A stretch of 64,000 nucleotides of DNA from Cloeon dipterum. Its lineage: Eukaryota > Arthropoda > Insecta > Ephemeroptera > Baetidae. The position numbers and the translations under genes were made by a program. The stretch lies in assembly GCF_949628265.1 (NCBI RefSeq), contig NC_088790.1, positions 32,492,545 to 32,556,544 of the forward strand. The letters run 5' to 3'. Shown here in pieces: positions 8,261 through 41,220 of the stretch (positions within the stretch are counted from its first letter, which is position 1; the number at the start of each line of letters is the position of its first letter). Under the pieces are notes generated by a model, which saw nothing but the letters and a program-made list of their open reading frames with translations, had not been told where the DNA came from and made no database searches.

Positions 8261-11200
8261 CTATTTTTTTCCAGTGTTGATGTCAATTGTGACTCGGTGG
8301 TAGGCGTTGCTGAGCACGCCCCGCAGGTTCCAGATGTTGGCAAAACCCTCCGGTTGCGTGTTGTAGGTCGAGTCGACCGCTTTCACCCACACTTCCAACT
8401 GCGAACAAAATTTTTAAACCAAAATTTAAAAAAATTCGATTTTTCAATTTCGAGTCATTTTTTTAATTACGATATTTTTCAAATTTAATTTTTCTCGAGA
8501 CGAATCATTCAAATCTGTCAGTTTCAGCCGATAAAATATGCATTGCTTCACCCTTGAGGTCTCAAAAAACCCTGAAAACAAATAAAAAATCAGGGTAGCA
8601 CTTGAGCCACCAAAATCCTTCAAATCCCATTTTCTAGCCACTTTATCGACACCTGACGGGTTCTGTAATTGTTCCAATTACAAAATCTGCCCACCGTTGC
8701 AAAGACCAAGTCAAGACCTTTCAGAATATATTCAATTCGACCCTTTTGGAACCTCAGGAAGCGCCCTGACGAGCCCGTAAGATGCTCAAAATCCTACCTT
8801 TTTGGCATTTGGCGGAACAGGCACCTCCAAGGTCCACAGTGTCCACCCCCAGTGGTAGGGGTGCTTGTTGGACTCCTGCTCCAGCTTGGCCACGCCCCAG
8901 GTCTTACCCTGATCCCAGGTCACGTCCACGCGCACGATTTTTCTTCCGCCGCCGGACCACGCATAGCCTTAAAAATTAATTAATTTAATTTTATATAAAT
9001 TTTAAAGAGAAAACCAACCTCTGAGGGGGATTTTTCCATCCACTGGCTTGACCTTGTCGCCCTGGACAGGGTCGCAGATGGCCGAGATGACCGGCAGCTC
9101 CTGAATTGCGGGCGCCGAGCTGAAGTCGACCGTGTCCCAGTCGGTGCTCGGAGAAAAGCCTTTGTAGTCGTTCTGCTGCCAGTGCGAGTCGCTTTCCTTT
9201 CCAGACACGATCACCTTGCCTGAAAAATTCGTTAAAAGGAAGTTAAAAAAATGGGACGAACCGAAAGACATGTTTTCTAAGCAAATTTAATTTATTTTAT
9301 GCTTGGTTTTGCTTTTATTTTGATTCTAACCAGCGCAGAATTTTACAGGACACATTTTGAATTTTCTACAGCGCTGTAGGGCCAATAGGAGCCGAGTAAA
9401 TTGAGAAACCGCCATTTTGGACATTTAGGAACTTGGTTTTCGAGCCCTGGGACGGATTCTACGGACCCGGCGGGGCTTCACTTGGTCTCAAACGATGCCC
9501 CTAAATGAGTTCTATTAGGCTGTGTTTGGTTTTTAAAAATCAGACAATAATTCGATTTTTTAGGATTTTTAAAAAAAAATATTCGAGTTCGATCTGAAAA
9601 GATGGACTGTAACTTACGTTCAGGTTGAGATATCAACTTGAAAATTTCACCATCCACCTTTAATTTTGATCCTGAACAACCTTTCTATTTAGAAAAAAGT
9701 TGCAGGTCAAGGTCACCTTTTTCGACCTTTTTCCGAAATTCCGATTTTTCAGGGTCATAGCGCATTCCAATTTTTTCGAGTTCATGGGCAAAAATGTAGC
9801 CCGTGAAATTCTTCACAAACTCACCTATTTAAATTAATTGAATCGCAGTAGTTCCGCTTCACTTCCGGTTTGAAATTTAAATTCTGGCTCTGAGCCGCTT
9901 AACCTTTCATTTTTCTTTGTTTTAACACGATTTATTTAATTTCTTGGTTTTTAAATTACTTTGGAACACTAACAGGACCTAAATCGAACCTTTTCATGTC
10001 AGGTAGCACCTTCAGGGCCTTACCCTGACAGTCTTTCAGGCGAAATTAAATTATTCCGCTCACCTAGCCATTTGACATTTCGAGCTCCGGTGACGCCAGG
10101 TACGATCACCCTGACAGGATAGCCGTGGTCTCTTGTCAGCGGCTCTCCGTTCATCTCAAAGGCGAGCAAGACGTCGCCCTTGGGGTCCATGGCCTTTTCA
10201 ATGGGAATCGAAGCCCCGTACGGATGCATCGACGGATCGGTGTCCAGGCCCTCAAACTGACCAAATTTTATTAGTTTTAATTAATTATATTTTTTTTAAT
10301 CTCAACCTGAACGTGCTCGACACCTGGCTGGTCATCTTTCAGCCCGGCGGCGAGCAGCACGTCTCGGAGACGCACGCCTGTCCACGTCGCGTTCCCGATG
10401 GCCGCCTGGCCCCAGTCCAAACCCTTCACAGGTTTTACCTGAAAATGGATTCCATTTTTTCCTATAAATCGGTTCAAATTGATCGCAGAACAAAATTTTT
10501 GACACCGTTGAACTCGTCTCGTCAATTGGAATAGCTTTTCTTTTGACCTCGAACAAGTAGGTCAAAGGTAAAGGTTACTAAAATCGAATTTTTTATTTAA
10601 AATTAAAATTTGAAAATTAGTAAATTTATAATTTATAATTTTGATATAGCCGTTTTGAAGAGCGCTAAAAATTAGGTCAGAAAAGTCAAAATTTAGAATG
10701 GCATTTTGGCTTAATTTTTTATTAAAAAATAAAAATAAAATAAATTGGTGATTTTTCGGGTGTTCAAAAAATGTTTGAACGCCTAATCTCAGCTTCTAAT
10801 AATCAGATTTTCAAAAACTGCACACCATTCGACTCTTTAATGATCTCCCCTAGATAGCTAAAGGTGTTTTGGCCGCCCTGTTTAATTTAAAAAAAAAATT
10901 ATAAATTGTTTTTTTTAGTACCTTGGTCATTTCGCTGCGTCGGTTTCCCGAGCACTGGACGGTGGACGTGACGGTATACTTTGGAAACTTCTTGAGCTGC
11001 TCCAAATTCAGCTTCATGCTCTTCACGCCGACGCCTTCAATTTCTATTTCGTAACTAGCAAGGTCGATTTCAGGTACAGGCAGGTGATTCCGAACAAAGA
11101 ACAAATCGCTAGAAAAATTAAAAATTTGAATTTCAGCGATTAATTAGTATAATTTCAATTACTTTGGCGTGAAAAAGTTATCAGCCAGGATTTTGAGCGG

Positions 11201-12337
11201 CGTCTCTGCGTTGTAGGGTTTGAGAGAGCGAGGCTGCAGGGCCGGATGTCTTCGAGGGTCCGAGTCGTAAGGATCGACCACGTTGTGCAACGACACCTTC
11301 GAATCCTCCTCGGACAAATTGCCTATTCTGTACGTTTCCAGCATTTTGAGGATATCGGCGTTTTTGTGCACGCCGTACGAGGCCCAGAAAGGGTCCACCG
11401 ACGCTCCGGCCGCCATCAGGATTTTTTCGCCACCGCCAGGGTGTTTTGGGATGAAATCGGTGATGTCGTACACGCCCTGAATGACAATTTTTAACTTTAT
11501 AAAAAGATGAAAAAATACAAAAATATCCAAATTAAAGTCTTTTCGATCCAATTGGAATAAAAAACACGTGAAAATTACAGCTTTTAGAAGTGTTTGGTAC
11601 AGGTTTCCATGGCAAAATAGGTGCCGTGAATAATTAATGATGAGAATTACACATACGTTTAATTTACAGCAAAATAAAACCTGTTCGACTCCTTTGAAAT
11701 TTTATATTTAATTTATTTTAATCATTAAAAATTTTCTGTACCTGTTTGTAAGTAACCCAAATTCTTTTCTCGTTGTCATCATGCGCGCGGACCTCGTCCA
11801 ACGAGTAGAAAGGAAGTCCCTCTTTGACCTCACCCGCCTGAAGCGTTGTTTCTTCCTTCGTCGCTGCCGACACGGCCGGCTCTGCGATTTATGACCATTA
11901 TTTTTAATTCAATTTTAGCATTCTGTAATTGGCATACCGTTGAGGTAACTGTAAAGACAGAATCCAGCCACTCCGGCGACGGCAGCGCCGGCCACCTGCG
12001 TGAAGTTGCCACTGCTTTTGGTCCTGGTCCGGTTCCAACCGCCTTCGTCCTGGTCGTGCGTGGAGAAACTCTGTGTGGTCCGCGCCAGCGACTGATATCG
12101 AAAGCCGCGGCTGCTAAGTAAATAAAATAATAGACTCATGTGTTGTTTTAACCTGCTGAGCAAGATAAGCGGCCCAAAATAGATTCTCAACGGTTTACGT
12201 CACAAATTAATTAATTTAAACGATTTTTTAAATTAAAAATCAATGTCAATCAATTTAGATAAATTTTAATTTTTGTATTTTGTACTGTAAAACAAGTTTT
12301 GTTCCACTTACAATTTCAGCATCGTTTTAAGAGCCAT
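8261..12337 (-). CDS. SUOX: Sulfite oxidase, mitochondrial
   Basis: Oxidises sulfite to sulfate in the mitochondrial intermembrane space, passing electrons from a molybdenum cofactor via a b5-type heme to cytochrome c; last step of sulfur amino-acid breakdown. Minus-strand exons: 12312-12337, 11938-12113, 11742-11881, 11163-11476, 10922-11108, 10307-10438, 10064-10256, 9019-9219, 8798-8967, 8261-8398; spliced 558 aa, close to the usual size, with all phases consistent. The N-terminus is a basic targeting sequence plus hydrophobic segment ([18 protein letters not shown]). The cytochrome b5 domain has heme ligands His126 ([10 protein letters not shown]) and about His151 (ASYGVHKN). The Mo domain starts at [15 protein letters not shown], with the Mo-binding cysteine about Cys271 in [12 protein letters not shown] dimerisation domain follows ([19 protein letters not shown]), ending DINTGKK. 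The acceptor of exon 2 is a TAGCAG (NAGNAG) pair, so one residue may vary. Confidence 0.97.
9370..10055. repeat. Repeat-derived sequence in a sulfite oxidase intron
   Basis: The intron 9220-10063 contains blocks that resemble the R3 family (CCATTTTGGACATTTAGG, ACGATGCCCCTAAATGAG, GTGTTTGGTTTTTAAAAATC). They are followed by AGGTCAAGGTCACCTTTTTC-type sequence that recurs weakly near 50.6 kb. It is too diverged to delimit precisely. Confidence 0.4.
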
Positions 12338-13952: not shown

Positions 13953-14922
13953 CACATCTTGTGGGCAAAAAACACGGCGGAACACTAGAATTCACAATTG
14001 ACCAGAATCGCGGGGTGCGAGCAAAATGTAAACACACGGACCAGCAGGTGTCAGGGGCACCAACCTAACCAAAGTGCTGCCAACCAAATTATGCGAATTG
14101 ATTGTTTTTTCCCTCCAAAATTGATTTCGGACTGAATTTTCTTTCGAAATTAATTATTTCATGCGTGGGGAATTAAGTGGAAGGATGAATTTTAATTAAA
14201 AAATTCAGTTTTTAATTTTAAATTAAAATTTATGCAACCGGCTGGTCTTCCGTGTTATTCGTGGTTGCCTATTTACACGATCTGCAGGCGTTACATTCAC
14301 GCATTAATTTTACAACTTTTAGAAATGGAAATATTTTTTTTAATTTATGAATAATTTTTATTTGCAGATTAACTGGCAAAAATATATAGACGAAACAGTC
14401 TAAAATTGGCTTAAAAGTCAAAATAAAGCTTTAGAGTTATCTCCTATTTACCGAGGATCAATCAATCAAGGTGCAATCTATTTTCTTCTCAATTTCAAAT
14501 AAAACACACACGTTTCAAGGCCACGTGCGTGGGGACGAGGAGCGCAGCGTAAAATCAGCTGATCATCAGAGATAAGGGTCGAACGTTCTTATCTGTTGGC
14601 ACACGAAAAATGAAAACATTATTAACAAACACTTTATTAATCACTAATCAGTTTAGTAATAGAGAGCGATTGACGCTGCAAAACATTTTTACAGTAAGCA
14701 AAATTTTCTTATTTTGACTTTGACTTTTCAATTCCAGTGTGTAAGTAAAATTTTAAATTTAAATATTTTACGTTTCATTAATAAAAACACTGAATTAATT
14801 GCATATCAACACACGCTTATGTAACGTTCAAAATTTAAAGAAATTAAAGTGCTATTAAAATTCCTTCCAAGAAAAATAAATTGAATCTATAATCAAATTC
14901 AATTAATATTTTTTTAATTAAG
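13953..14922. promoter_or_regulatory. Shared upstream region between TM2D2 (-) and the ankyrin gene (+)
   Basis: A 970-bp divergent intergenic region with no ORF of note. AGATAAG (14570-14576) and CTTATCT (14588-14594) form an inverted pair of GATA-type sites separated by 11 bp, about 330 bp before the ankyrin ATG, next to a CAGCTG E-box (about 14557). The remainder is AT-rich and shows no repeat that I recognise. Confidence 0.5.
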
Positions 14923-17723
14923 ATGGCGTCGAGCGAAAGCAAAAGGTTGAAGCAGGAGAAAATGGCCTCATTTTCTCGCCTGAAGGAGACTTACTTCGCG
15001 CACAAAGTTCACTTCCTGAACACGGCGAAGGGCGGCGCCACGGCTCTGCAGGTGGCGGCGTCGATCGCCGACCTGGACTTGTGTCGGCGCCTCGTGGAGG
15101 ACGGCCACGACGTGGGCGCCGCGTGCCGGGACTTTGGCGCCACGGCGCTGCACTACGCGGCCCTCAACAAGGAGCACGGCAAGCAATTGGTTGCCTACTT
15201 CGTCTCTCTCGGCCTCAGGGTCGACGAGAAGGACAACGAGGCCGAGGAACCTATTCACTATGCCCTCAGGGTCGACAATTTTCAGGTGAATTTAGTTTAA
15301 TTTGTGTTAGCAGCATTTTATTTCATGAAAAAATTAATTTAAATATTTTTAACTTCAGGTGGCGCAGGAGTTGCTGGAATTCCGTCACGACGACGGGGAG
15401 AAGGGTGGAAAAAACCTGCTGCACTTCTTCGTGGTGGAAAACAATTTGGCGTTCGCCAAAGCCGTGCACGAGAACGACGGGTATTTGATCAAAGAGCTGA
15501 AGAGGAATGGAAAAAGTGCTCTCCACCTGGCAGCAGAGCACGCCGACCTGGAAATGTGCGAGTGGCTCGTCGAGCAGGGCGTCGACCTGCACGCTCGCTG
15601 CCAGAGTTTCTGGTGCAACAAAAACGCTCTGCACTACGCTGCAGTCAACAAAATGCACGGAAAAGAGGTGTGAAAATCGAAGCTCGCGGGAATTTAAAAA
15701 GGGGGCGTGTCATATCCCCGGGTAATCTGTAATAATTCTTAAAGACCACCATTGAGGAAGTTTCTGAGCCCACCAATCGATTCCTGAGGGTCGAATTGGG
15801 TAAAATGGATGGTTTTTCCGTTAAATAATGTCCAGCGCGACATGCGAACTTTTTTCCCGCCTAAACATTATGAATGCGAGAAGTGCGCATGCGTGAGAGC
15901 TGGTTTGAGCACTTGCAGAGATCGCCTTGACAAATGACTTCTTTGTCACATCCAGCCAGCTCTCACGCATGCGCACTTCTCGCATTCATTGTTTTGGCGG
16001 GAAAAAAGTTCGCACGTTGCGTGTTGCACTATTTTAACGGAAAAAACATCTACCTTACCTAATTCGACCCTCAGGAATCGATTGGTGGGCTCAGAAACTT
16101 TGTAAAAGACGGTTGTAATCGGTTAAAAATTTTACTAAATATTTTTAAAATTAATTTTTGTCTGAATTAATAAATTTTCTTTGGCCAGGTAGTGCGTTAT
16201 CTAGCGTCATTGGGTCTGGGCGTGAACCAAAGGGCCAAATCCGAGGAGACGCCCCTTCACTGCGCCCTGCGAGAAGGAAACGTGGAGGTGGCGCGCCAGC
16301 TTTTGGACCTGGGGGCCGACCTGAAGGTGAAAATGTGCGAGGACAACCTTATACAGCACTGCGTCACGCACAACAGGCTGGAAAGCGTCCGCTTTGTCCA
16401 CGAGAACGATCCAAATTTGATCTTCGAGCTGGGAAAAAACGGGAAAAATGCTCTGCACCAGGCAGCGGCGCGTGCAGACCTCGAAATGTGTCAGTGGCTC
16501 GTCGCGCAGGGCCTCGATCCACTTCCCTCCTGCCTCGGCTGGCGCTCCAACGTCCTCCACTTTGCAGCTTTTAATAAGCTTCATGGCAGGGAAATCATCA
16601 GGTAATCTAAATGTGGTCAAAATTGGTGTAAAAAACATTAAAGACCTGATCTCAGGCTGGAGTAACCTGAGAAAGGTCGTTAGGGTATCCTAAGTTAAAG
16701 TTCAATCAAAGACCTGTCTGATGAGGGGTCTTGATCGACGATCGGGTAGACAGTCGAATTTTAATAAAAATATTAAATTTCGACGTTTTTGAAAATTATA
16801 CAGGAAAAAATTCCTAAAAATTCGATATGTGGTCAGATTTTGAAAAAACGCAAATGGGCGGATGCGTCTTACCAAGGGGCATCGATTGGTATCCAAATCG
16901 ACCACGTCCGGCCCATAGGGCCCCGCCTGGGCCCCAAAAACTAATATTTTGAAATGTCACAAATCGCGATTTCCCGAATTTAAAAATTAATAGCTTGGCT
17001 CCTGTGGGCCGTAGAGTCAAAAACCAAAGTTTATTAGTCTCGCCGTGATATTCTGCGTTATTTAAGTCTGATTACTGCCCCCTAAATCTGCGCCATTTTT
17101 GGTGTTTTGAATTTTTAAATTCGCCTTCCAGCCAGATTCGGTCCAAGACTGAAAAATACGCTTTCCGCAGCAAAACGCGACGATTGGTCAAGTTTTGCGT
17201 TAAAATTCGCCAATTTTAAACACTGAAATATATTTTGCATTGTCTTTACTGTAGAAAAACAGCATTTTTAACTAAGAAAATTAATTTAAATGACAGATTC
17301 TTCGTTCCTCTCGGCGTGGACCTGAACCAGAAGACGAAATACGAGGTGACACCCCTAAACTTCGCCCTGATCGTGCAAAACATGCCCGTCGTGGAGGAGC
17401 TGCTCAAGCACGGCGCGGACCTGAAGGCGCGCCGAGGAGATAAAAACCTGCTGCACTACTTCGTGTCGCAAAACAGGCTGGACATCGCCAAATTCGTGCA
17501 CGCAAAAGACAAGTCGCTCATCGGCGAGCGTGGCGAGAGAGGGAGAACGGCGCTGCACCTCGCCGCAATGCACTCGGACGCGAAAACGTGCAGCTGGCTC
17601 ATCGAACAGGGAGTCGACCCCCACGCTCTCACCGAAGACGGGAAGTCTGCAATTGACCTGGTTGCCGGGCCCAATAGCCACGAAATGAGAAGATTTTTAT
17701 TATCGCTTGGAACTAAAAGATGA
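14923..17723 (+). CDS. Ankyrin-repeat protein made of a repeated four-ankyrin block
   Basis: Soluble, 503 aa, no TM or signal peptide; specific orthologue not recognised. Exons: 14923-15285, 15359-15667, 16189-16601, 17297-17723, with matching phases (0, 0, 2). Essentially the whole protein after a basic N-terminus (MASSESKRLKQEKM) is ankyrin repeats. They fall into a block of about 136 residues that occurs three times plus a partial fourth. Landmarks recur in the same order: ALHxAA..ADLxMCxWLVxQGxD, then NxLHxAAxNKxHGxE, SLGLxV, PLHxALR, GADLK, NLLHxFVxxN, FVHxxDxxLI, then NGK. Two introns split the block at nearly the same point (just after HGKE / HGREIIR), consistent with growth by exon duplication. 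Intron 2 carries an R1 palindrome and intron 3 an R3 repeat. AATAAA at 17864-17869 is the likely poly(A) signal. The function is probably protein binding; the partner is unknown. Confidence 0.9.
15738..16116. repeat. R1 palindromic repeat, copy 4 (ankyrin gene intron 2)
   Basis: Left end TTAAAGACCACCATTGAGGA and right end CTTTGTAAAAGACGGTTG. Mirrored TTTTTCCCGCC and TTTTGGCGGGAAAA words plus mirrored GCGCATGCG words. Just before it (about 15680-15730) is the word CGCGGGAATTTAAAAAGGGG, also found near 29432 and 51935. Confidence 0.85.
16641..17180. repeat. R3 repeat in ankyrin gene intron 3
   Basis: Contains GAGAAAGGTCGTTAGGGTA, GACCTGTCTGATGAGGGGTC, CAAGGGGCATCGATTGGTA and CCATAGGGCCCCGCCTGGG. 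This is the same series as at 19727-20214 and 20876-21405 but in the opposite orientation. Non-coding. Confidence 0.7.
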
Positions 17724-18262: not shown

Positions 18263-21200
18263 ATGGCGAGCAACAGAATTTTCGGCGCTCTGGCCAGGGC
18301 GAAAAACACCGGATTCCTCCTGTCCAGGGGCAATGGTGAGTCGAATTCGGCGCCGCGGACGACGCCTCCGCCTCGGCGGCGCCCGGCGAGGGGCTCGGGG
18401 CGCCGATTTGCGCTGTAAAGCGTTGGGCGAGTGGCCGGCCGTGTGTCACTGGCCAGCTGATTACGAGAGAGCAAAGACGGCAGTCGAAAGTTCAGTTCAT
18501 TTCGTTCATCTCTGACATTTAATTGGGCTGAATTAATCGCTGGCCTGCTTTTAAATTATGTTCTCACCGTCGTGAATGGGGGTTTGGACCGGAATGGAGT
18601 GCTAAAAATGAATTGGATGGATCGGTGGCATTAATATTTCAAAAGAATGTTGCTCGAGAGTTCGGATATTTCGATGTTGTGATGAAATAATTGGGAGAAT
18701 TTTCAGATTTAGGCTTGTTAAACGTTTTAAATTTAATTTTCTTCAAGTTTAAACTTGAAAATTAAGGTTTTGGTCTTGTTTAATTTGATTTTTGATGTTT
18801 ATTTATTTTCACCTGGTCAATGATTAAGCACTTTTGGATTTTTACCTGTTTGGATTATAGTTTTAAACATGTTCTCATGAGTGGCGGCAAAGCAAAAGGG
18901 TCCAAAGTCGAGTCCAAAGAGCTCCCCTCTTTATCTTTCAGATTTATCGATAGTTAGATAGGCAATAATTGTTTTGCTAGTAAATCAAAACACCATGGAA
19001 TCATTAGCCGAAGACGAAGGTCTAGTTAAAATCCTTCAACTGCATCAAATTTAACGGAGAAATCTTAAAATTTCAGTGGCTCAGCGGTTTATCAGTCCGG
19101 CCGTCAGCTCGGCGTCCTTGCACACAAGACTGGAAATTAAAAACAACGTGGCAGTGATCACGCTAGATTCACCAAATGTCAAGGTAATGAAATTCCCCAT
19201 CAAATTTCTCATAAATTAATTTTATTTAAAAATTCAGGTGAACTCGCTGAACGATGAGGTGATGTCGGAGGTGCAGGGCGTGCTGCAGAAAATCGAGAAC
19301 GACCCGAGCGTGCAGGCGGCCGTGCTGATTTCCGGAAAGCCGGGATGCTTCATCGCCGGCGCCGACATCAAGATGCTGGAGAAGTGCAAGACCGTGGAGG
19401 AGGCGACCACCATTTCACAGAATGGACAGCGCATCCTTGCCCAGGTCGAGAACAGCAAGAAGCCCGTCGTCGCCGCCATCATGGGCTCCTGCCTCGGCGG
19501 CGGACTCGAGGTACTCATTTTTAATCGCTATTTTGCTTTTGAATAGGAAACCATAAATATTAAAGAAACTTGTTATTACGTAATGGGCATAATATTATTT
19601 TATTTATTAAAAATATATTTTTGAGTGAAATTTTGCCAAAACAATCTGTTTATTTCTTGACAAGGCCATTTTCCGAGTAAAAAATTGGCAAAGCTGCAAA
19701 TTTGGCGTAAAATCATAACTGAAATTTCACGGCGAGTCTAACCAACTTTGGTTTTTTACTCTGCGATTGATAGGAGACGAGTTATAAATTTTTAAAGTAA
19801 AAAACGCCATTTGTGACATTTTTAATTTTTGTTTTCGGGGCCCTATGGGCCGGATGGCTCTGGTTTTGGTACCAATCGAAGCCCCTAGGTAAGGCGCGTC
19901 CATTCGTGTTTGGTTTTTTAAAATCGGACTATTTTTCGAATTTTTAAGAATTTTTTTCCGCCAATTTTTCGGAAAGCCGAAATTCAAAAAATGGTTTTAT
20001 TTTTTTAAAATTCGGCTGCTTGTCCGATCTTTGCCCACAACACCTCATCAGACACGTCTCGGATAGGGCTCTGACCTGCGGTACCCAAACGACCTTTTTC
20101 AGGGTACACCAACCTGAGATGCCGGTTTTTTATGCTTTTTTACTAATTACGAGCACATTAGGCATCAAAATTTCACACTTTCCTGTCTCCGACCTTCCTC
20201 TAAGGAATTAACCACTCAAATTTTTTTGTCTCAGGTGGCGTTGGCTTGTCACTACCGCATTGCCGTGAAGGACAAGAAGACGGCTTTGGCTGTGCCGGAG
20301 GTGATGCTGGGTCTGCTGCCCGGCGGCGGCGGCACCCAGCGCCTGCCCAGCCTCATTTCCCTCCCAAAGGCCATGGACATGGCCCTGACCGGCAGGAACA
20401 TCAGGGCCGATGCCGCCAAGAAGCTCGGCCTTGTCGATAGAACTATCGAGCCGCTCGGCGTCGGCATCAAGGACGGAAACGAAAGGTGCCATTTTTTGTT
20501 TATTTTGAGAGGGTAGATTTACAATTCATCTTGTGGACAGGACGATGGAGTACCTTGAGGAGGTTGCGGTGAACGCCGCCCGGCAGCTGGCCACCGGAGA
20601 GCTCAAGATCAACCGCGAAAAGGGCTTGGTCGACAAGGCGCTCAAGTTTGCCTTGAACTACGAATTCGTGAGGAACCAGATCTTTGGAAAGGCCAAGCAG
20701 GCCATCATGAAGCAGACTGGTGGACTCTACCCCGCCCCACTCAAGGTACACAGTCCCAAAACTTAATTTGCTATATCATTTTTCGTTCCAAGAAATAATT
20801 AAAATGCCTAGAAACGCAGGGAGGCGTGTCTGCGAGTCGGAATTCAGTCAGGCGGGGGCGGAATTTTAGTCCATTTAACGCAAAATTTTGCGGCGAGTCT
20901 AAAAATCTTTAGTTTTTTACTCTACGATGTATTGAACCCGAGTTATTAATTTTTAAAGTTGAAAAAACGCGATTTGTGACATTTCTAATTTTTGTTTTCG
21001 GGGCCCAGGCGGGGTCCCATGTGCTCGACGGCGCCGATTTTGGTACCAATCGATGCCCCTTGGTGCGGCGCGTTCGCCCGTGTTTGGTTTTCTTAAATTG
21101 GACCATTTTTCGAATTTTAACGAATTTTTTTCTGATTTTTTTCCAAAAAGCCGACATTTTTAAAAATGGTATTTTTTATTTAAATTCTGCTGCTCATCCG

Positions 21201-23491
21201 ATCTTTGCCCACGACCCCTTATCGGACAGGCCTTGGAAAGGGCTTTGACCTGCGGTACTCAAACGACCTTTTTCAGGGTACCCCGACCTGAGATCCGGTT
21301 TTAAATGCTTTTTCTTTAATTTTGAACTCATTTGTCGATACTCTATGACGATTTTCCCCCTCGCCTGTCACTGACCTTCCTCTGGTCACGCAACCTGAGG
21401 TTTATCTGGTGCAAGGCACTTATTTTAATATTAAAATCATTACAGATTCTTGAGTGCATCAGGACAGGCGTGGAGAAGGGTCCAGTAGCTGGCTACGAGG
21501 CGGAGAGCAGAGGCTTCGGCGAGTTGGCCGTGACGCCCGAGTGCAAGGGACTGATCAGCCTGTTCTACGGACAGACCGAGTGCAAGAAAAACCGCTTCGG
21601 CGCCCACCAGCATCCGATCAAGACGGTGGCCGTGCTCGGCGCCGGCCTCATGGGCGCCGGCATTGCCCACGTCTCCGTCGACAAGGGCTACCACGTCATC
21701 CTGAAGGACACCAGCCAGGCCGGTCTTGGCAGGGGACAGTCCCAGATCCAGTCTGGATTCGACAGGATGGTCAAGAGGAGGAGGATTTCCGCGTAAGTTT
21801 CTGAAATCACTGAAAATATTCAATTTATCGCTAAATTTTTCATTCAGGTTCGATCGTGACGTGATTTTGAACAACCTGGAGCCTACCCTGAGCTACGAAG
21901 GCCTGAGGAAGGCGGACATCGTGATCGAGGCCGTGTTCGAGGACATCAACCTGAAGCACAAGGTGATCAAGGAGGTGGAGCAGTACATTCCGGAGCATTG
22001 CATCTTCGCGTCCAACACGAGCGCCCTGCCCATCTCGGACATCGCCAAGGCCAGCAAGCGCCCTGACAAGGTGATCGGCATGCACTATTTCTCGCCCGTG
22101 GACAAAATGCAGCTGCTCGAGATCATCACAACGGACAAGACCTCCAAGGACACGACCGCCGCTGCCGTTGCCTGCGGCCTCAAGCAGGGAAAGGTCGTCA
22201 TCACCGTCAAGGACGGCCCTGGATTCTACACCACCAGAATCTTGTCCGCCATGTTGGCTGAGGCCATCAGACTGCTTCAGGAGGGAGTCGACCCGAAAAC
22301 GCTTGACAATTTGACCAAGAAGTACGGTTTCCCGGTCGGTGGCGCCACCCTGAGCGATGAAGTCGGCCTCGACGTCGCTGCCCACATCGCCGATTACCTT
22401 GGCAAGACCTTCGGCGAACGTTTCGCCGGAGGAGACCCCAACATGCTCAAGGACATGGTTTCCAACGGATTCCTCGGTCGCAAGAGCGGCAAGGGATGCT
22501 TCATCTACGAGAAGAACTCGAAGAGCAGGGAGATCAACACCGACGCCGTGGCTATCATGCAAAAGTACAAACAGGAGCCACGCGGCTCAACCGCCCCCGA
22601 AGACCAGCAGCTGAGGATGGTCAGCCGATTCGTCAACGAAGCCGTCATGTGCCTGCAGGAGGGCATTCTCGCCAGTCCCGTGAGTACAATTTTTAAAATT
22701 ATCGCTTGGAATCTTCAATTAATTTATATAGAGTGCTGGAATATCATTTTTAACACTGCCAATCGATTCCTGAGGGTTTAATTAGGTCAGATAGCCGATT
22801 CACTCTGTAAAGCACTTGATTTTTCGTGCAGAAAACCGTCAAGAACGTAAAAACCGTTACTTTGGCGGTTTAATTGGTTTAAAGAACGCTACTGACCAAT
22901 CAGAGAAGGAAGCGGAATTCTGATTGGGCTATGACGTAGTGACGAAAGCGCCACAGCGGCATCAACGAATATAAGAACGCGATAACAGATGGGAAAGCAA
23001 AGAATCTTACGCAGATTGAGCAGTCACGTGACTCAATTCCACCATCTCATTGGCCAATAGGAGGCATTCGCTCCCTTCCCTTTTCTTGCGTTACCCCCTC
23101 CACTGTAAGGCGTGAAGTCATGCGCAGTAGAGTCACGTGACTGCTGGAACTGCGTTAAATTCTTTGCCGCGTTCTCAAACTTCGTCAGCCAATAAGAATC
23201 GGTATTTTCATCATTTCTGCATGTTCTGCCGAATTTTCGATCTGCTCACCTTCAGAAATCAGATTGGTGACGAGAATTTTTGTCCCGCAGCTTGAAGGAG
23301 ACATCGGTGCCGTGTTCGGTCTGGGCTTCCCGCCCTTCACCGGCGGCCCATTCCGGTTCGTGGACCGCTTCGGCGCCGACAAGCTGGTGGCCAAGATGGA
23401 AGAGTACAAGCAGCACTACGGCGTCGCCTTCGACGCCTGCCAGCTGCTCAAGGACCACGCCAAGGATTCCAGCAAGAAGTTCTACAAATAA
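18263..23491 (+). CDS. HADHA: Mitochondrial trifunctional protein subunit alpha (enoyl-CoA hydratase / 3-hydroxyacyl-CoA dehydrogenase)
   Basis: Catalyses the hydration and NAD-dependent dehydrogenation steps of long-chain fatty-acid beta-oxidation on the mitochondrial inner membrane, in complex with the beta (thiolase) subunit. Exons: 18263-18335, 19077-19183, 19238-19510, 20235-20485, 20541-20745, 21446-21792, 21848-22679, 23291-23491; spliced 762 aa, essentially the vertebrate length. The N-terminus is a basic targeting peptide ([20 protein letters not shown]). The crotonase domain has [21 protein letters not shown] ending in Glu151, and [17 protein letters not shown] with Glu173, both catalytic. 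The dehydrogenase domain has the Rossmann motif [17 protein letters not shown] and the catalytic His498 in [13 protein letters not shown], whose last residue is the conserved Glu510. It ends KDSSKKFYK. Introns 3 and 5 hold R3 repeats and intron 7 an R5-type palindrome. Poly(A) signals: AATAAA at 23842 and 23966. Confidence 0.98.
19727..20214. repeat. R3 repeat in HADHA intron 3
   Basis: Blocks in order: GGCGAGTCTAACCAACTTTG, TTTTCGGGGCCCTATGGGCC, TTGGTACCAATCGAAGCCCC, ACCTCATCAGACACGTCTC, GACCTTTTTCAGGGTA. The same order recurs at 20876-21405, one intron downstream. Non-coding. Confidence 0.75.
20876..21405. repeat. R3 repeat in HADHA intron 5
   Basis: Second direct copy of the 19727-20214 repeat in the same gene: GGCGAGTCTAAAAATCTTTA, TTTTCGGGGCCCAGGCGGGG, TTGGTACCAATCGATGCCCC, GACCTTTTTCAGGGTACCCC, CTGACCTTCCTCTGGTC. 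Confidence 0.75.
22935..23175. repeat. R5-type palindromic repeat, copy 2 (HADHA intron 7)
   Basis: Inverted repeat with AAAGAATCTTACGCAG / CTGCGTTAAATTCTTTG ends, GTCACGTGAC twice (23023-23032 and 23132-23141) and a central TTGGCCAAT. Nearby to the left (about 22755) is a lone R1-like terminus (CCAATCGATTCCTGAGGGT). Confidence 0.7.
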
Positions 23492-32341: not shown

Positions 32342-33680
32342 TTAACATTCGCCCATTTTCAGTTTGACGAAATCTGAAAAATAAATTGAAATGTGGTTAC
32401 AGGCCAACAGTTTTCTCTAGTATGTGCAATTTTGAAATTAGGAACAGTTTGACAAATTGCACGATATTTTCGCTTGATATCGATCTATCCAACAGTGTGC
32501 AAATTTTGAGGAATAATTCCCGAAATTATAAAATTAATTACTCGTCATTTTACAATTGGAAAAATAGTCGACTTTCTCAACATTCTGGATATTTATTTTG
32601 AATGGTTTCACAATTTTTGTGTATAGTATTTTAAGTGAAGCTTAAATTAAATAAGATTTTAATCCCAAAGTTTGTGCAAAGCTTTACCATAATTTTTGCA
32701 GTTTACGACCTTCATATCGCACTCGTTGGAAAAGGTGCGCATTTCGCCCTTGCCGTTCTTGCCGCAAACTGGATCGTAATTAAAAATGCACAAAATCGGC
32801 TCGGAGCAACCTGCTTTGGTCGTCGCTTCCGTAGGTTTGGTCTTCGCTTCCGTAGGTTTGGTCTTCGCTCCCGTTGCTTTGGTCTTCGCTCCCGCCGCTT
32901 TGGTCATCGCTCCCGCCGCTTTGGTCATCGCTCCCGCCGCTCCCGTTGCTTTGGTCGTCGCTCCTGGTTGGTTTGGTCGTCGCTCCCGTTGCTTTGGCCG
33001 TCGCTCCCGTTGCTTTGGTCGTCGCTCCCGTTGGTTTAGTCGTCGCTCCCGATTGCTTTGGTCGTCGCTCCCGTCGCTCCCGTTGCTTTGGTCTTCGCTC
33101 TCGGTTGCTTTGGTCGTCGCTCCCGTCGCTCCCGTTGCTTTGGTCGTCGCTCCCGCCGCTCCCGTTGCTTTGGTCGTCGCTCCCGCCGCTCCCGTTGCTT
33201 TGGTCGTCGCTCCCGTCGCTCCCGTTGGTTTGGTCTTCGCTCTTGTTGGTTTGGTCGTCGCTCCGACCAGCAGCATGCAAGCTGAAAATCAACATTTGTT
33301 CATCGCCAATGGCACCATGGATTTTCAAAAACACAACTAAATGGCAATAAGATTGCCATTTTAATGATCACGCAGAAATGTTTCTCGTCGTAAATAAAAT
33401 TTTGTAAATTTAAATTGTGAAAAATTTATTATAGGATCATTTTTGCGAGAGTATTATTAAGGGTATTTGTCAATTTTACCGCATTTATTTGCCCATCCTC
33501 TCTCGCGAAATTAGTCATTTGAAAAACTTATTTCGTCGTTTATTTTACAGTAAATTCGTGAATGAAAATGAAGATTTTAAAATATTATTTAAACTATTTT
33601 TCTTTTTTCGAGTCGCCGCGCGGCGCAGTTAGGAATATAAAAAAATACTCACCAACAAAGCAGACGAGCACGTATTTCAT
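32342..33680 (-). CDS. Secreted Thr/Ala-rich repeat protein with one C-terminal Kazal domain
   Basis: Minus-strand exons: 33653-33680, 32688-33281, 32342-32373; spliced 217 aa. Exon 1 plus the start of exon 2 gives a signal peptide (MKYVLVCFVACMLLVGA). Residues 17 to about 166 are a low-complexity repeat: 21- and 30-bp units encode GATTKAT/GAAGATTKAT, then an acidic Ser-Asp-Gln block (about 70-86), then an Arg/Gln/Pro block (about 87-113), then Thr/Ala/Lys again. A Kazal domain follows (168-217) with spacing C-x5-C-x7-C-x14-C-x6-C-x12-C; P1 would be Phe (CIFNYDPVC), suggesting chymotrypsin- or elastase-like targets. The sixth Cys comes only from the 32-nt last exon (VKLKMGEC, stop); reading through the donor instead gives GKALHKLWD, lacking it. 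AATAAA on the minus strand lies at 32273-32278. Probably an O-glycosylated secreted or salivary/cuticular-type inhibitor; that role is inference. Confidence 0.8.
32818..33262. repeat. Coding minisatellite, 21/30-bp units
   Basis: Units of the form GGTCGTCGCTCCCGTTGCTTT (21 bp), often lengthened by a CGCTCCCGC-type 9-bp insert to 30 bp. Three units are 22 bp long (near 33100, 33052 and 32968), each shifting the frame by one base, so the sum restores the frame. The tract also leaves other frames open on both strands, which is a repeat artefact. Confidence 0.85.
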
Positions 33681-35184
33681 GTTTTCAGTTTGTTGAAATC
33701 GGATGCAAATGCGACAGTGTGTGTTGTAGCGCGTATTTGCGTCCTCGTTTATGCATATTTTGCAATAGTTGTCGCCGCGCGTGCCACGTGACCGAGAAGC
33801 TGGCCAATAAAAAGCAGTGCGGTGGCTGTCAACCTTGAGACTCAGGCTTCCCAGGTTCCCACCGATGCGCGATAGCAGGAAAGGTTCGCGTGTACCTTTC
33901 CTGTCATACGAGAGCGATAGATAGATAGATAACAAAACGGGCTATTTACTCTCCCATCATGAAAAGTGCTGGAAAATTTCACTGCGCAATATGTAGCAAA
34001 ACATCTTTTTTGCACTCTGTCTAAATAAACAGAAAAGCGGCAGAGAAGTGTTTTAAAAGTGCAAAAAGCTGTATTTTCTAAGAAAACGAAATTAACACGC
34101 AGGTTTTAATCTTTAAATTGAATTTGACATGAGATGTTCTTCTACTCCGCACGGAAAATTGATTCACGAAAGGTTAGCTAGTTTCCGGCCAAGAAAATTG
34201 TCACATTTCCGGCAATATTTCGCGAGTTTTTCGTCTCATTTTAACGCGACCAACGGAGTGGCCGACTCGCCGGCCGAATTCGGGCCGACGGCCAGCCAAC
34301 GGATTCGCGAATTTGTCAGAATTTTGCAATTAATTAACTCGGAACTCTCATACTGAACGCAAAACAGAAAATTCCTGAGGTTTTTGGCTGGTTCTTCCGT
34401 GTGAATTAGTCGTCGTCAGAGAAAATAAAGATTTTTTTAATAATTGTTGACAGTTTTCTAAAATTGTAAAATAGTTTTTTTTTATTTCTGCAAAAAAATG
34501 TTTCTTCAAAATAGCACCTTAATATATATTAATTGCAGTAGGCGGTATTTTCCACGATCTTTTCAACTTATTAGAAAAAGAGAAGAGAAAAACTGTGTCG
34601 CGCCAGTTCCGGTCCATTCCGGCGCATAGAAAAATTAAAAGAAAAAGCCAAATATGGTTTGCTTAATCACGATTTTTAAAAAACGTGGATGTAGTAAGAT
34701 TTGGCAAATACACTCCTTTTATTGAAAAAATTGCATACAATTTGGGTCAAAAGGAGCGTTCTAATAATTGTTTAAAAATCAAAAATATTTTGTTACAAAT
34801 AAAAAAAATGTTTTTATTAAAAAGCGAACCGCGTCTAAAACAATTTTCTGATACGTACTCTATAATATTATAAATTGTTCGTTGTGGCAAGCGAAAAAAT
34901 TCAGATAATGTGAGAAGCCGATGGCTGGAAAGTTATTTAGGCAGAGGTTTCAAATTCCAACAATTCTGTTTTTGACACGCAAAATGCGATGAATTCTAGA
35001 GACATTTCGAGAAAGGCAGCTGTCGGCAACGCACTGATGTAGAAACGTGTTCTTTAAGGTAAAGTCATATAATTAATTCATCTCGATTTATCCATGATAT
35101 AAATGTTTTATATATATTTTACGAATAACATAAATATTTCTGGACACTTTTAGGGACAATAATCACCCATACAGGAGAAAAAAA
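33681..35184. other. Intergenic region before the zinc-module gene pair
   Basis: Contains a small GATA tetranucleotide run (33917-33930). An ATG-initiated 75-codon ORF (34129-34356) has no recognisable domain and I do not call it a gene. From about 34640 it is homologous to the DNA before the second paralogue (about 37290-37812). It includes shared words such as GACACGCAAAATGCGATGAA and GTCGGCAACGCACT and a probable 5' UTR intron (donor GTAAAG at 35059, acceptor TAG at 35151-35153). Confidence 0.5.
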
Positions 35185-36838
35185 ATGAACGGTAGAACTT
35201 GTCCTCAGTGCAATAATGTATATCTTGATTCCATTGGCTGTTGTAAGAACGCAAACTGCCCATATTTTCTTGGAAACGGAGTTCAAAGTGTGGAGCCGTC
35301 GAATTTTGACGACCCTTCACACCACTCCGATGGGCAAGAATTTTCTAGTGAAGATCTAACGGGATTTGACCATAACGATATCGCCACTGTTTGCGATATT
35401 ATTATAGCTTCAATGCAAGGAAAAAACTCGACTGAACAATCGCCATCTCCAAACCAAGCAGGATGTGGCGGTACATAAACAAACTAATTCAATTTTTCAT
35501 ATTCATAATTTTGATGAATTTTTCTGTTCAGGCCAACCTGCACTTCCGGACAATAATGAGCTATATCGAAATTTCGAGAATACGACAAATCAGGTAGAAA
35601 GTAACGTTCAGGAGAATTCTTGGAATTCGTCAGGAGAGCCTATGCCACAGGGGGCCCCTGCATGCCAATGGACTAACCAAGGACAAAACTGGAACTGTTA
35701 TGCACCATCAACAAGTCAAGGAAACTCCGTTTCCCACCCTACTTTTGGAAATATTTCGCAGGCTCGTCAGATTAACCCTTCACAGCAACAACCTGTCGCT
35801 GCTCCTAATCACTCACCGATCGCAGCAACCTCCAGTAAAGGTTTCAAACTTGCTGCTCACTCGACAGGATATTATGGCCCTGGAAATCAATCAGGTAGAT
35901 TTGTTATTAAAGAGTTTATGATGCAACTTTTACGCTGTTCCTTAGGGCAAATTGCACAGAGGGAAGATGCTCAACATTCTCAAAGAAACACTCGAGATTC
36001 GGCGACAATTCAGGCTGCCAATCTGACGCAACAGCCACTTGCAGCGTACGTGCCAATTAGGACTTTGGAAATTGGCGCGTCTGGCCCTCTAAGTTCTCTT
36101 GAAAGCATTGCTCAAAACCAGAAATCTCATTCGCTGCAAGAACCTGAGGCTGGTGCATCCGACTCTGGACAAAATCCAATAGGAAATTCAACTAGGATTG
36201 TCTCAGGTACAAACGGATATTTTTAAAAATAATTTTGAAGCTAATAAATCAAACTTTTTGCAGAGCCTAGTGGATCTAACAATCCAGGATTTTGCGTAAT
36301 GTGTGAAGAGGATTTTAAAGACATTCACGCTCATTGGAGAGAATGGCACTACATTCAATTAGGCGTTCAAAATCCTTGCTATCAAGTGTACGAACACTTT
36401 GGTGCAACATTTTTAATACCGCATTTCACACACGATGATGAATTACAAAAATGCCCCACATGTAAGTTCATGTTCTTCAAACTTCGTAGCGACGACCATG
36501 GCTGTCCCGTTTCATCAAGCCGCTCAGCCGAACCAATTGCCAACTTTGCTCCAGTCCTTCCTTCAGGACTTGTTAAACTAGAAGGATATTGCTTGATGTG
36601 CCAATTCACCTTTCCTGATGTGTGGAGCCATAGGTTCCAATTTCACAAGGGAAACGCAAAATACACGTTCAAAAATGTTTATGGAATAATGGCACTCCTA
36701 CCTGATGAAACTAGTGTGAGAAATGAACTGGGTCAATGCACGCCTTGCTGGAAGATTAAGTACAAGAAGAAACTGTCTTATGATAGGATTAATCATACCT
36801 TCTACTGTCCACCTTGCTTCCTTATTTGGAAGAAGTAG
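35185..36838 (+). CDS. Multi-zinc-module protein, paralogue A (family not recognised)
   Basis: Unknown family. Exons: 35185-35470, 35532-35894, 35946-36206, 36264-36838; spliced 494 aa. Residues 5-25 form a compact Cys motif, CPQC-x9-CC-x4-CPYFLGN. The middle (about 40-300) is low-complexity, rich in Ser, Gln, Asn and Pro. The C-terminus holds two similar zinc modules: C-x2-C-x9-H-x4-H (314-332; 413-431), each followed after 30-34 residues by a CxxC-based knuckle (CPTC...HGC 367-384; CTPC...YCPPC 462-488). No signal peptide or TM. The ATG follows an A-rich leader and the 5' UTR looks spliced. The third intron is conserved, with nearly the same sequence, in the paralogue. The 51-nt second intron is divisible by three and open, so retention would add 17 residues. 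Poly(A) signals AATAAA at 36852 and 36909. Nucleic-acid or protein binding is plausible from the zinc modules but unproven. Confidence 0.85.
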
Positions 36839-37812
36839 AAAAAAATTGAAGAATAAATCGGCGTAGAGAACGATTTGTGATCTTATTTGGAGAATGCAAA
36901 TAAGTTTGAATAAATTTCTCGATTCGCTAGAAATTATTTTGTGTTTTCTCTTCCTCTTGATACCTGAACCTTTTCGTAATCCAATTGGTGTTTTTTAATG
37001 TTCACGAGAAATTCCGCTCGAAAAAATCAGTCTTTCTGTGTTCTTGCAAATAATGACAACTCTTAAATCTCGGATTCCGACAATCAGAATTGGAAAAACC
37101 ACTCAACGTTAGACTTCCCCTGACAAGCTGAAGGGTTTAGGGGATGCTAACTCCACCCTTCTATCAATGAACGCTGCTGGCTACAGAGATTTAAATGTCT
37201 GGTTCATTTATTTAAGTAATTTTAAAAGAAGACAGCTCCTCTTAAATATTTACGGCAGTTTCAAAGTTCCATAAACACATATCGTTTTTTAAAAAACGAA
37301 GCGAACAATTTATTATAAAGGCCAATTTTAAAAATATGGTTTCCTTGCATTAAAAAATTCCATGAAATTCGGATTAAAAGGTGAGCTAAACTAATTGATA
37401 AAATAGCAAAAATTCATTATTCTATTTGGAATAAAAAATTTATTTATTAAAAAAGCGAACCGTGTCTAAAAAATTACCTGATAATGCGTATTCAAATTTT
37501 ATAAATTGTTCATTGTGAGATGCGTAAAAATGTAGACTATGTGATCGCATCCAATGGCTTAAAAGTTATTTGGGTGAAGGTTTCAAATTCCACTCATTCT
37601 GTTTTTGACAAGCAAAATGCGATGAATTCTGGTCATTTCCTGTGAAACAGCGGTCGGCAACGCACTCAATTACAAACAAGTTTTGCAGTAAGGCTAAAGT
37701 ATTAATTCTTTGTTGTGTTTAATCTCTATTTATCCATATATTTAATTCATGATATAAATGTTTATTATTTCCGGCTACTTTTAGGAACAATAGTCGCCCG
37801 CCATAGAAGAAA
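36839..37812. other. Spacer between the tandem zinc-module genes
   Basis: 3' flank of paralogue A (36839 to about 37150), which has a close match after paralogue B (39478 to about 39790: GTTCACGAGAAATTCCGCTC, AATCAGTCTTTCTGTGTTC). The promoter and leader of paralogue B follow (about 37290-37812), matching the region before A, with a 5' UTR intron (donor GTAAGG at 37688, acceptor TAG at 37782-37784). The join of the duplication therefore lies near 37150-37290. Confidence 0.65.
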
Positions 37813-39477
37813 ATGAGTGAAAGAAATTGTCCTCATTGCAATCTTGATTTATATTGCTGTTTTAAAAATCCAAACTGCCCATATTATCTTGGAAACAAAA
37901 TTCAAAGTGCGGAGCCGTCGAATTGTGACGACTCTTCACACCACTCCAACGGGCTAGGAACAGGGAAACAATTTTCCAGTCGAAAAATAACAGCAGAATT
38001 GGACGATAATGATATCGCCGCTGTTCTCGATGATTTAATTTCCACCGGAGGAAAAAACTCGACTGGACAATTGCCATTTCCAAACCAAACAGGATATGGC
38101 GGTAGATAAACAAATTCTAGTTCTTATATTCATAATTTTGATGAATTTTTCTGTTCAGGCCAACCTGCACTTTCAGACAGTAATGAGCAAAATCGAAATT
38201 TCGAGAAGGTGACAAATCAGGTAGAAAGTAACGGCCAGGAGAATTCTTGGAATTGGTCAGGAGAGCCTATGCAACAGGACCAATGGACAAACCAAGGACT
38301 AGACTGGATATGTTATGGACCAACCAGAAGTCGAGAAACGTCCGTGTCTCACCCTGAGTCTACATTTAGAACTAATTCGCAGGCTCATCAGATTAATCCT
38401 TCACAGCAACAACCTGTCGCTGCTCCTAATCCTGCACCGCTTGCAGCAACCTCCAGTGAAGATTATCAACTTCCTGACTTGACAGGATATTATGGCCCTG
38501 GAAATCAATCAGGTAGATTAGTTAATGAACGGTTTATAATGCAAAATTTGACACTGTTGTTTAGGACAAATTGTACTAAGAGAAGGTGCTCAGCATTTTC
38601 AAAACAACACTCGAGATTCGGCGACAATTCAGGATGGCAATCTGACGCAACAGCCACTTGCAGCTTGCGTGCCAATTAGGACTTTGGAAATTGGCGCATC
38701 TGGCCCTCTAAGTGCTCTTGAAAGCATTATTGCTGAAAACCAGAAATCTCATTCGCTGCAAGAACCAGAGGCTGGTGCATCCGACTCTGGACAAAATCCA
38801 ATAGGAAATTCAACTAGGATTGTCTCAGGTACAAACGGATATTTTTAAAAATAATTTTGAAGCTAAAATCAAACTTTTTGGCAGAGCCTAGTCGATTTAA
38901 CAATCCAGGATTTTGCGTGATGTGTGAAGAGTATTGTAAAAACATTTACACTCATTGGAGTGATTGGCACTACATTAAACGCGGCGATAAAAATCCTTGC
39001 TATCAAGTGTACGATCAATTTGATGCAAAATTTTTAATACCGCATTTCACACACCATGATGAATTAAAACAATGCCCCACATGTAAGAACGTGTTCTTCA
39101 AACTTCGTTGCGACAAACACGGCTGTCCCGTTCAAGAATCCAGCTCATTGTCAGCCCAATCAAATGTGAACTTCGACCCAGTTGTTGCTTCTGAATATTT
39201 TAAACTAAAAGGGCATTGCCTGATGTGCAAATTCACCTTTTCTGATGTGTGGCGCCACAGGTTCGAATTTCACAAGGGCAACCCAAAATACATCTTCAGA
39301 TATGTTCGTGGACAATTGACACTGATACCTGATGAAATTAGTATTGTTAATGAACTGGGTCAATGCTCGACTTGCTTAAAGATCATGTACAAGATTGAAC
39401 TGTGTCATTATATAAAAAATGATTCCTTCTACTGTCCAGCTTGCTTCCCTAATTTAATAACTAGAAAAGAATTGTAG
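37813..39477 (+). CDS. Multi-zinc-module protein, paralogue B (family not recognised)
   Basis: Tandem paralogue of 35185-36838. Exons: 37813-38101, 38159-38512, 38565-38828, 38885-39477; spliced 499 aa. The N-terminal motif is CPHC-x5-CC-x4-CPYYLGN, shorter between the Cys pairs than in A. Both C-terminal zinc modules are kept (CVMC...THWSDWH then CPTC...HGC; CLMC...HRFEFH then CSTC...YCPAC). Intron positions match A; the second intron is 52 nt, so it must be removed to keep the frame, which confirms the gene model. B has extra cysteines (EEYCKN, KLRCDKHGC, LCHY) and a longer C-terminal tail (TRKEL). Ligand positions are conserved, while the other residues of this exon differ heavily from A. 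The AATAAA words of A are changed here (AATGAA, AATAAG). Probably functional, but expression is unknown. Confidence 0.84.
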
Positions 39478-41220
39478 AATGAATCAGCGCAGAGAGCAAT
39501 TTGTGATCTTACTCGGAGAGGGCAAATAAGATGCTAGAATATATTTTTCGATATGGTAGAAATTATTTTGTGTTTTCTCTGCCTCTTTATACCTCAACAT
39601 TTTCCTAATCAGATCGCTTTTTTAATGTTCACGAGAAATTCCGCTCGAAAAAATCAGTCTTTCTGTGTTCTTGCAAATAATGACAACTCTTAAATCTCAG
39701 ATTCCAACAATCAGAAGTAGAAAAACCACTCAACGAACGTTAGACTTCCCCTGACTAGCTGAAGGGTTTAGGGGGGATGCTAACCCTTTCAACCCGCTGC
39801 TGGTTATTAAATGGGTCAAATTTCATCAGAGGCCTTCGAATAATATACTTTAATTTATCCTAAAACTTCTTTGTTGGCACAACATGCATTTCTATAAATG
39901 AAAACAATTAGTTTTCGGTCCTTTTTGCGTTACCGAGTATGTTAAAAAATCCTGAGAGACAAAAGTGATGTTAAGCGAAAAATTCTATAAATAATTTAGA
40001 AAACTTTTCCGTTGAAGAACGATAGCAAATTAAAATCGCAAAACCCTAACTTTGAGACAGAAATTTGGAAGTACGTCTCGATATATGAGTCGTGACCAAA
40101 TAACGAATTCTAGTTCCTCGAATACGAGGTCGACGGTGTGTTGGCGAACCGCAGTGTATGGGTGGCAGCGACGGCGGCGGCTTCAATTAGGCCGTGCATA
40201 TTATGCGCGAGTGCGACGAAAAGCTCATCAAAGTTTGCTTATTATACGCGCGCGCGGCGAGTGGCGAGACTGGCGAGTGGCAAAGGGAGGAAATGCGCCA
40301 GTGTGCGTGTGCGGTATACATATATTCCTCCCCGCAAACAGGCAGGAAATCCGACTGCTGGATGGGGACACACTCCATCCATCCCTCCACCACCGCACCA
40401 CCTGCCTCTCGTTTTTGACGTCTCGCAAAACCAAGACAGCGCCCGGACGCTGCGTCTGGAACTGACATTGAATTATAATTATTATTGGAAACTGTCGCTG
40501 CAGGAATGATCCAGGGAATTTTCAAGCAAAATCGAATAATGAATTTACAGATTAGGTCCTGAGGATCATGTCCAGTTAAAAAAAGATTGCTATTTTTAAA
40601 AATAATTAATTTCCTTTGCTAAAAAGAGAGGTAAATTCGAAAAAATCATTTTAGTAGGGCACTTTTGGTCATAAGGAAATGAAAAAATGGATGGCCTTTT
40701 CCTGAAATATCTTTTTTTTAAATTAAAAAGCGCTTTATACATTTGATATTTATTAAAGATTTTTTTATTTTAATCATTTTTCCATTTAATTTCAATCATA
40801 ATAAACAGGTTCGATCGGAGAAGTGCAGATGTGACAGGGCCAAAAGTGAGCGCGGGGGCGAGGTGTCAAGTGAGCCGGGGGGTGGAGGGTGGAGGGTGGG
40901 TGCGGTATCGGGTTTTGCCGGCCACGCACTAATTAGACACCCGAAACTGCCGACCAACAGGCCTTCACATCTCTGCGGCTTCTGTGTCGCCGGCCGGCAA
41001 CCCGCTTTTCACGACGCGCGCGCGTTAAGCCAACGCAAACTTTCTTCGGGCAGCATTAAAAATTCAAAAGGCCAAAGCAGAAAGCCAAAACACGCCGCAC
41101 AAACAACACGAACCCACACAATTTCCCGGCCGGTGTGGACTATGCAACGTGCGCCTCACTTCTGCCAACACCGTTGCATACCTTTACAAAAAATGGCTTA
41201 AATATACAGACAAATACTGT
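39478..41220. other. Non-coding DNA after the zinc pair; start of the GC-island region
   Basis: The first 310 bp are the 3' flank of the duplication unit. GC-rich islands follow at about 40050-40510 and 40810-41200. Several overlapping ORFs there are open on both strands, as expected from GC content, and none shows a domain. Between them (40540-40740) is AT-rich DNA that contains AGATTAGGTCCTGAGGATCATG, mirrored near 60655-60685. Confidence 0.45.

Follow-up and report, generated by a model that had tools for sequence, protein, structure and literature searches.

A large, locally duplicating family of zinc-module proteins in the mayfly Cloeon dipterum

We analyzed two neighboring genes in a 64,000-nucleotide stretch of the Cloeon dipterum genome (the window; C5:32492545-32556544, where C5 is the contig that holds it, NC_088790.1) and searched for their relatives in the genome as a whole (190 Mb, 10 contigs). 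The pair belongs to a large family of zinc-module proteins that grows by local duplication. As far as the libraries searched go, the family is undescribed, and it is a variant of the lineage-expanded zinc-finger kind. The sequences suggest, as a proposal that we regard as evenly balanced, that the zinc-module proteins of this insect family are intracellular recognition proteins forming a diversifying repertoire, with chromatin or nucleic acid as the most likely setting. More tentatively, it may be a new zinc-module superfamily of more than 130 loci outside ZAD and canonical C2H2, in which a fixed chassis of ribbon, linker and module carries a hypervariable helix face evolving in step with transposons, heterochromatin or pathogens.

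The gene pair and its family

Each gene was modeled with four coding exons. Gene 1 runs from an ATG at 35185 to a TAG stop codon at 36836-36838 and encodes 494 amino acids (aa), and gene 2 occupies 37813-39477 and encodes 499 aa. All six introns of the two genes are GT...AG and all six are in phase 1, and the spliced frames have no internal stops. A previous examination of the letters (the sequence-only reading) had proposed two genes of these lengths with a common architecture, and we recovered both at the same positions with intact four-exon models. The motif ends CPYFLGN and CPYYLGN, the Ser/Gln/Asn/Pro-rich middle (S+Q+N+P is 42% in gene 1 and 37% in gene 2) and the two C-terminal zinc modules were likewise found in both. 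The proposed N-terminal CxxC...CC...C pattern is present in the pair but does not extend to the family, as the relatives listed have a single Cys at that place. Just ahead of each start codon there is a putative intron in the 5' untranslated region (35059-35153 and 37688-37784), recognized by eye from a donor and a TTTTAG acceptor. The features of the pair, in window positions and with exons from the splice model, are as follows.

34803-37150, forward strand: tandem duplication unit 1 (flanks and gene 1); 81% identical by blastn over 2413 columns to 37433-39783
35185-35470, forward strand: gene 1, coding exon 1
35185-35277, forward strand: gene 1, N-terminal zinc-ribbon-like motif, MNGRTCPQC...CKNANCPYFLGN (profile started from both window copies)
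35532-35894, forward strand: gene 1, exon 2, Ser/Gln/Asn/Pro-rich linker (by composition)
35946-36206, forward strand: gene 1, exon 3, linker
36264-36838, forward strand: gene 1, exon 4, both zinc modules and stop codon (also from family matches)
36284-36514, forward strand: gene 1, zinc module A, with finger a, predicted hairpin and finger b (alignment, module comparison, structure model)
36581-36820, forward strand: gene 1, zinc module B (alignment, module comparison)
37018-37160, forward strand: dispersed repeat in the 3' flank of gene 1, with a counterpart behind gene 2; not family-specific
37433-39783, forward strand: tandem duplication unit 2 (flanks and gene 2), from blastn against unit 1
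37813-38101, forward strand: gene 2, coding exon 1
37813-37896, forward strand: gene 2, N-terminal zinc-ribbon-like motif, MSERNCPHC...CPYYLGN (N-terminal motif profile)
38159-38512, forward strand: gene 2, exon 2, linker
38565-38828, forward strand: gene 2, exon 3, linker
38885-39477, forward strand: gene 2, exon 4, both zinc modules and stop codon
38905-39135, forward strand: gene 2, zinc module A (module comparison)
39208-39447, forward strand: gene 2, zinc module B (module comparison)

The final exon of gene 1, used in a six-frame search of the genome, had at least 149 matches at E ≤ 0.001 (150 of 189 candidates were scored). Merging matches within 900 bases left at least 135 loci, a lower bound: 72 on C5, 62 on C3 and 1 on C2. 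The loci are clustered: two groups on C5, for example, hold 33 loci within 123 kb and 21 within 96 kb, and one on C3 holds 22 within 95 kb. A second query, a three-module open reading frame (ORF) of C3, gave 195 matches, often several per protein, and those listed add places outside the first list (e.g., C3:5374016). Some genome matches to the module exon run across stop codons. The sequence-only reading of a tandem pair was thus right about the duplication and understated the extent of the family.

For 40 of 45 C-terminal sequences on C5, the nearest relative lies no more than 60 kb away. When positions were shuffled, the corresponding number had a mean of 13.3 and a maximum of 23, and the family has therefore grown by local tandem duplication rather than by dispersal. 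Within the window pair, identity is uneven along the duplicated unit (100% in intron 3, 93% in exon 3 and 81% in exon 4), and these shifts suggest gene conversion. Over the whole coding sequence, nonsynonymous divergence (dN) is 0.176 and synonymous divergence (dS) 0.198. There is a third close copy on the minus strand at C5:32800001-32805000 (L029:2607-3641), which has exons 1 to most of 3 at ~85% DNA identity; the module exon of either window protein was not found within this 5-kb piece.

The high copy number could also indicate a transposable-element protein or a domesticated transposon family instead of a host gene family. A reverse-transcriptase ORF (RVT_1, E 1.1e-23; L016:5620-6501) lies within a C5 cluster of the family, and one N-terminal piece of a relative weakly matches Zn_Tnp_IS91 (E 0.0081; 16.6 bits against a cut-off of 26.3). 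We consider this origin highly improbable. The multi-exon, phase-1 structure is kept in many copies, and the loci are not dispersed: all but one are on two chromosomes, with near relatives adjacent. No transposase or reverse-transcriptase match was listed for the two full window proteins. The repeat in the 3' flanks is separate from the family and genome-wide, with at least 46 matches, including the two in the window, spread over all five large contigs (C1-C5; 40 of 180 candidates scored).

Members on C5 have a ribbon-like motif of four Cys at the N-terminus, followed by a linker rich in Ser, Gln, Asn and Pro and, as a rule, by two modules of ~77 aa, each consisting of a C-x2-C-x9-H-x4-H finger, a predicted hairpin and a second Cys/His site. 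Among 76 module-bearing ORFs, 55 have two modules, 18 have one and 3 have three, the last all from L031 on C3. Module A of gene 1 compared with module B gave 28% identity (gene 1) and 35% (gene 2). Canonical C2H2 fingers (PF00096 type) are spaced C-x2-4-C-x12-H-x3-5-H. The family does not have this spacing: finger a is C-x2-C-x9-H-x4-H in 111 of the 122 stretches starting with the CxxC motif that was searched, the 15 of 137 module stretches lacking that motif being uncounted. In an alignment of 26 C-terminal exons, the invariant columns were H19, H24, C59, C62, H74, C76, C105, C108, H118, C154 and C157, together with E55, L56 and L140; H123 was nearly invariant, and C6 and C9 were not on the list. 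Across 45 sequences, Cys was found at C6 and C9 in all 44 that cover them, and 13 of the 14 ligand columns were invariant where present, one sequence having Tyr at H19.

An iterated profile started from both window copies detected the N-terminal motif in 37 ORFs of the fetched loci. Its spacing was C-x2-C-x(9-10)-C-x4-C in 28 of these and different in 5, and 4 were unfitted. Some members have an alternative ribbon-like start, CPKC...CPTC, and L031 and L032 had no match to the ribbon profile. Continuous phase-1 exon chains could be modeled for 33 of 67 C-terminal ORFs tried, some of the 33 reusing one N-terminal exon; for the rest, either the fetched piece yielded no N-terminal exon or the model was not intact. 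In the C3 clade, sampled as 20 sequences (three ORFs of L031, and L037-L053), three modules were aligned. Its members mostly have a basic, AT-hook-like start of the GRKRK, GRTK or GGRPK type (e.g., KRGGRKRKYTEEK or GGRPKIFTDEK).

None of the Pfam-A matches listed reached its cut-off, either for the two full window proteins or for 26 C-terminal exons. The best match of the gene 1 protein was zf-DBF (16.1 bits against a cut-off of 24.8), and none was listed for the gene 2 protein. Over the 26 exons the commonest weak matches were zf-DBF and Ephrin_rec_like (8 of 26 each), and the match closest to its cut-off was Ephrin_rec_like in one member (21.8 against 23.1 bits). Neither full protein had a PF00096 match listed, and 25 further C-terminal exons had none at E ≤ 0.05. 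There was no zf-AD (PF07776) or KRAB match listed for either window protein. Matches of DZR and Zn_ribbon_3 to the N-terminal motif, in three matching ORFs, scored 12.9-14.4 bits against cut-offs of 27.0-27.3. NCBIfam listed nothing common to more than one member. PDB sequences gave no match for one protein and nothing convincing for a family profile (best E 0.045). Searches of viral, phage and prokaryotic-genome collections, sensitive to close relatives only, found no relative. The family was not described in the available portions of the literature on mayfly or lineage-specific zinc-finger expansions. These results agree with the sequence-only reading that the family is an unrecognized one.

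Change at the finger positions and possible functions

We compared exon 4 in 15 disjoint sister pairs, picked by total divergence from 45 C5 sequences. Over the exon there were 652 nonsynonymous (N) and 179 synonymous (S) changes, and the ratio of the nonsynonymous to the synonymous proportion (pN/pS) was 0.96 (bootstrap 0.84-1.14), a value that led us to reject positive selection over the whole exon. A set of 13 pairs with dS < 0.1 had a median ratio of 1.77; these pairs are not independent, and we did not take them as proof. The 14 ligand codons had no nonsynonymous change (N 0, S 7, expected N 57), and all other codons had a pN/pS of 1.03. The intact frames and the constraint on the ligands argue for working proteins, as had been proposed from the letters.

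Rates differed along the exon. Measured against exon pS, finger a of module A was at 1.65 (1.12-2.43), finger b of module A at 0.32 (0.11-0.60), finger a of module B at 0.56 and the tail at 1.58. In finger a of module A, local pS was itself raised (0.179) and the local ratio was 0.99, so the regional figure alone is no proof of selection. Change in this C5 finger 1 is concentrated at positions 17, 18, 21 and 22, that is, the two residues before the first His and two of the four between the His. These four positions had N 43.5 and S 4.5, giving a pN/pS of 3.13 against exon pS (95% 2.15-4.63) and 2.69 locally, versus 1.08 and 0.53 at the other non-ligand positions of the finger. The counts without the window pair were N 39.5 and S 4.5. 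Matching positions in finger a of module B ranked at 0.031 among four-position sets. In the C3 clade, ten disjoint pairs (overall pN 0.119, pS 0.140) gave 2.67, 2.21 and 1.11 times exon pS for the matching positions of fingers 1, 2 and 3, with ranks of 0.080, 0.015 and 0.074. In the C3 reference, finger 2 has no final His where the spacing would place it.

A model of one module, built from the four window modules, had an overall predicted local distance difference test score (pLDDT) of 63 and ~80 over residues 1-20. This low-depth model shows a strand-strand-helix finger whose helix spans exon positions 16-23. Positions 17, 18, 21 and 22 would then share one face of the helix, with 16 and the ligand 19 turned to the core. 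A Foldseek search with the model gave no match at E ≤ 0.001 and was uninformative on the fold. A model of the 186-aa exon from a two-row alignment was discarded (pLDDT 30).

These properties could reflect relaxed evolution of redundant duplicates, in which local duplication and gene conversion keep the zinc fold alone and the fast positions are those least constrained. A pN/pS of about 1 outside the ligands is what this explanation would lead one to expect, and it is also consistent with the abrupt shifts in identity within the window pair, the stop-spanning matches and the close copy without modules. Relaxation alone does not give a ratio of 3.1 at four positions of C5 finger 1, nor the values exceeding 2 that two of the three C3 fingers show, and the C5 pairs have retained their ligand codons. 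We therefore regard it as improbable.

The reading that we favor, a recognition repertoire, rests on the combination of a fixed zinc chassis and a variable helix face. The Cys/His sites would bind zinc, and positions 17, 18, 21 and 22 would make up the face that the finger helix exposes. This face could contact a target that differs between paralogs or changes over time, and the ribbon and linker might recruit partners common to the family. The family would then work as a recognition repertoire that diversifies, most probably in connection with chromatin or nucleic acid, and its role would be comparable to that of lineage-expanded zinc-finger families that track transposons or heterochromatin. 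The chromatin or nucleic-acid version is preferred because of the basic AT-hook-like start in C3 and the analogy with expanded zinc-finger families, as far as the available portions of two reports describe them (PMC10547256, PMC7655104).

A version with protein partners comes close behind. Put in its strict form, the proteins would be adaptors whose short-loop finger binds proteins and whose variable face follows a partner that changes, for example a protein of viral or microbial origin, with nucleic acid uninvolved; we hold this to be rather doubtful. The zf-DBF finger of Dbf4 binds proteins, and 8 of 26 members resemble its profile weakly at E ≤ 1 (best E 0.0032). The zf-DBF cut-off was not reached wherever bits were shown (best among the 26 members, 17.9 against 24.8 bits). 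Most of the C3 clade read has the basic AT-hook-like start, which also speaks against adaptors. In their favor are the 31 of 33 C5 models without a simple nuclear signal, and fast positions that do not coincide with the canonical DNA-contact set.

Several observations weigh against the repertoire reading and its nucleic-acid version. A simple basic nuclear signal was found in neither window protein, nor in those 31 C5 models, and the x9 spacing and the fast positions differ from the canonical DNA-reading set. Only 7 of the 15 disjoint C5 pairs exceeded a pN/pS of 1, in keeping with the exon-wide value. The four positions were chosen after finger 1 had been seen, so that only the other fingers are a test; the matching positions of module B do no more than equal exon pS (1.08; 0.64-1.67), and two of the three C3 ranks are above 0.05. 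Other non-ligand positions of C3 finger 1 are fast too (1.62 times exon pS), and ligand positions of this clade do change (N 3 in finger 1 and N 9 in finger 2). Given the raised local pS, gene-conversion mosaics may contribute to the finger-1 signal.

Genomic surroundings and known zinc-finger systems

The insect status of the host was supported by five 7tm_6 matches over the cut-off. Neither a TTAGG array nor a COX1 match over the cut-off was found in the genome. Elsewhere in the window there are a cytochrome b5 domain (11162-11701), ankyrin-repeat ORFs (14893-16602) and exons for enoyl-CoA hydratase and 3-hydroxyacyl-CoA dehydrogenase (20118-22778). A Kazal-domain ORF on the minus strand (32662-33288; window 32812-33264) overlaps a long tandem repeat of 9-, 21- and 30-base units, in which several frames of both strands are open.

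The vertebrate KRAB-ZNF and zebrafish FiNZ-ZNF families have expanded rapidly in particular lineages, and many FiNZ-ZNF genes show positive selection, according to the portion of the report available (PMC10547256). Like them, the mayfly family is a large, expanded zinc-finger family. Unlike them, it has an x9 instead of an x12 finger loop, which alternates with a second Cys/His site; KRAB is absent from the matches of the window proteins. Its fast positions overlap the canonical DNA-contact positions only partly. The mayfly family resembles ZAD-ZNF proteins in layout, an N-terminal zinc domain being followed by fingers in both; it differs in having no zf-AD match listed for the window proteins and no array of canonical C2H2 fingers. 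ZAD-ZNF is likewise an insect zinc-finger family with young, fast-evolving members, again as described in the available part of the source (PMC7655104). Likeness to zf-DBF (PF07535) is limited to the weak, repeated finger match, below the cut-off; the sole zf-DBF match of the genome is a separate locus (C3:9938528). Zinc ribbons (DZR, Zn_ribbon_3) resemble the N-terminal C-x2-C...C-x4-C, and the CPKC...CPTC of some members, again below the cut-off.

There were 16 zf-AD matches in the same genome, none at loci of the family, and 1 OBP match, where the literature reports 191 OBP genes for C. dipterum. These low numbers, in a genome with 7tm_6 receptors, may mean that such genes are truly few, or that the exon-wise search, which may miss small exons, fell short. 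Next to the 16 zf-AD matches detected, this insect has a differently built module at no fewer than 135 loci, with change focused on a few finger positions. If the repertoire reading is true, the family would offer an independent example of such a repertoire, one whose target could be looked for directly.

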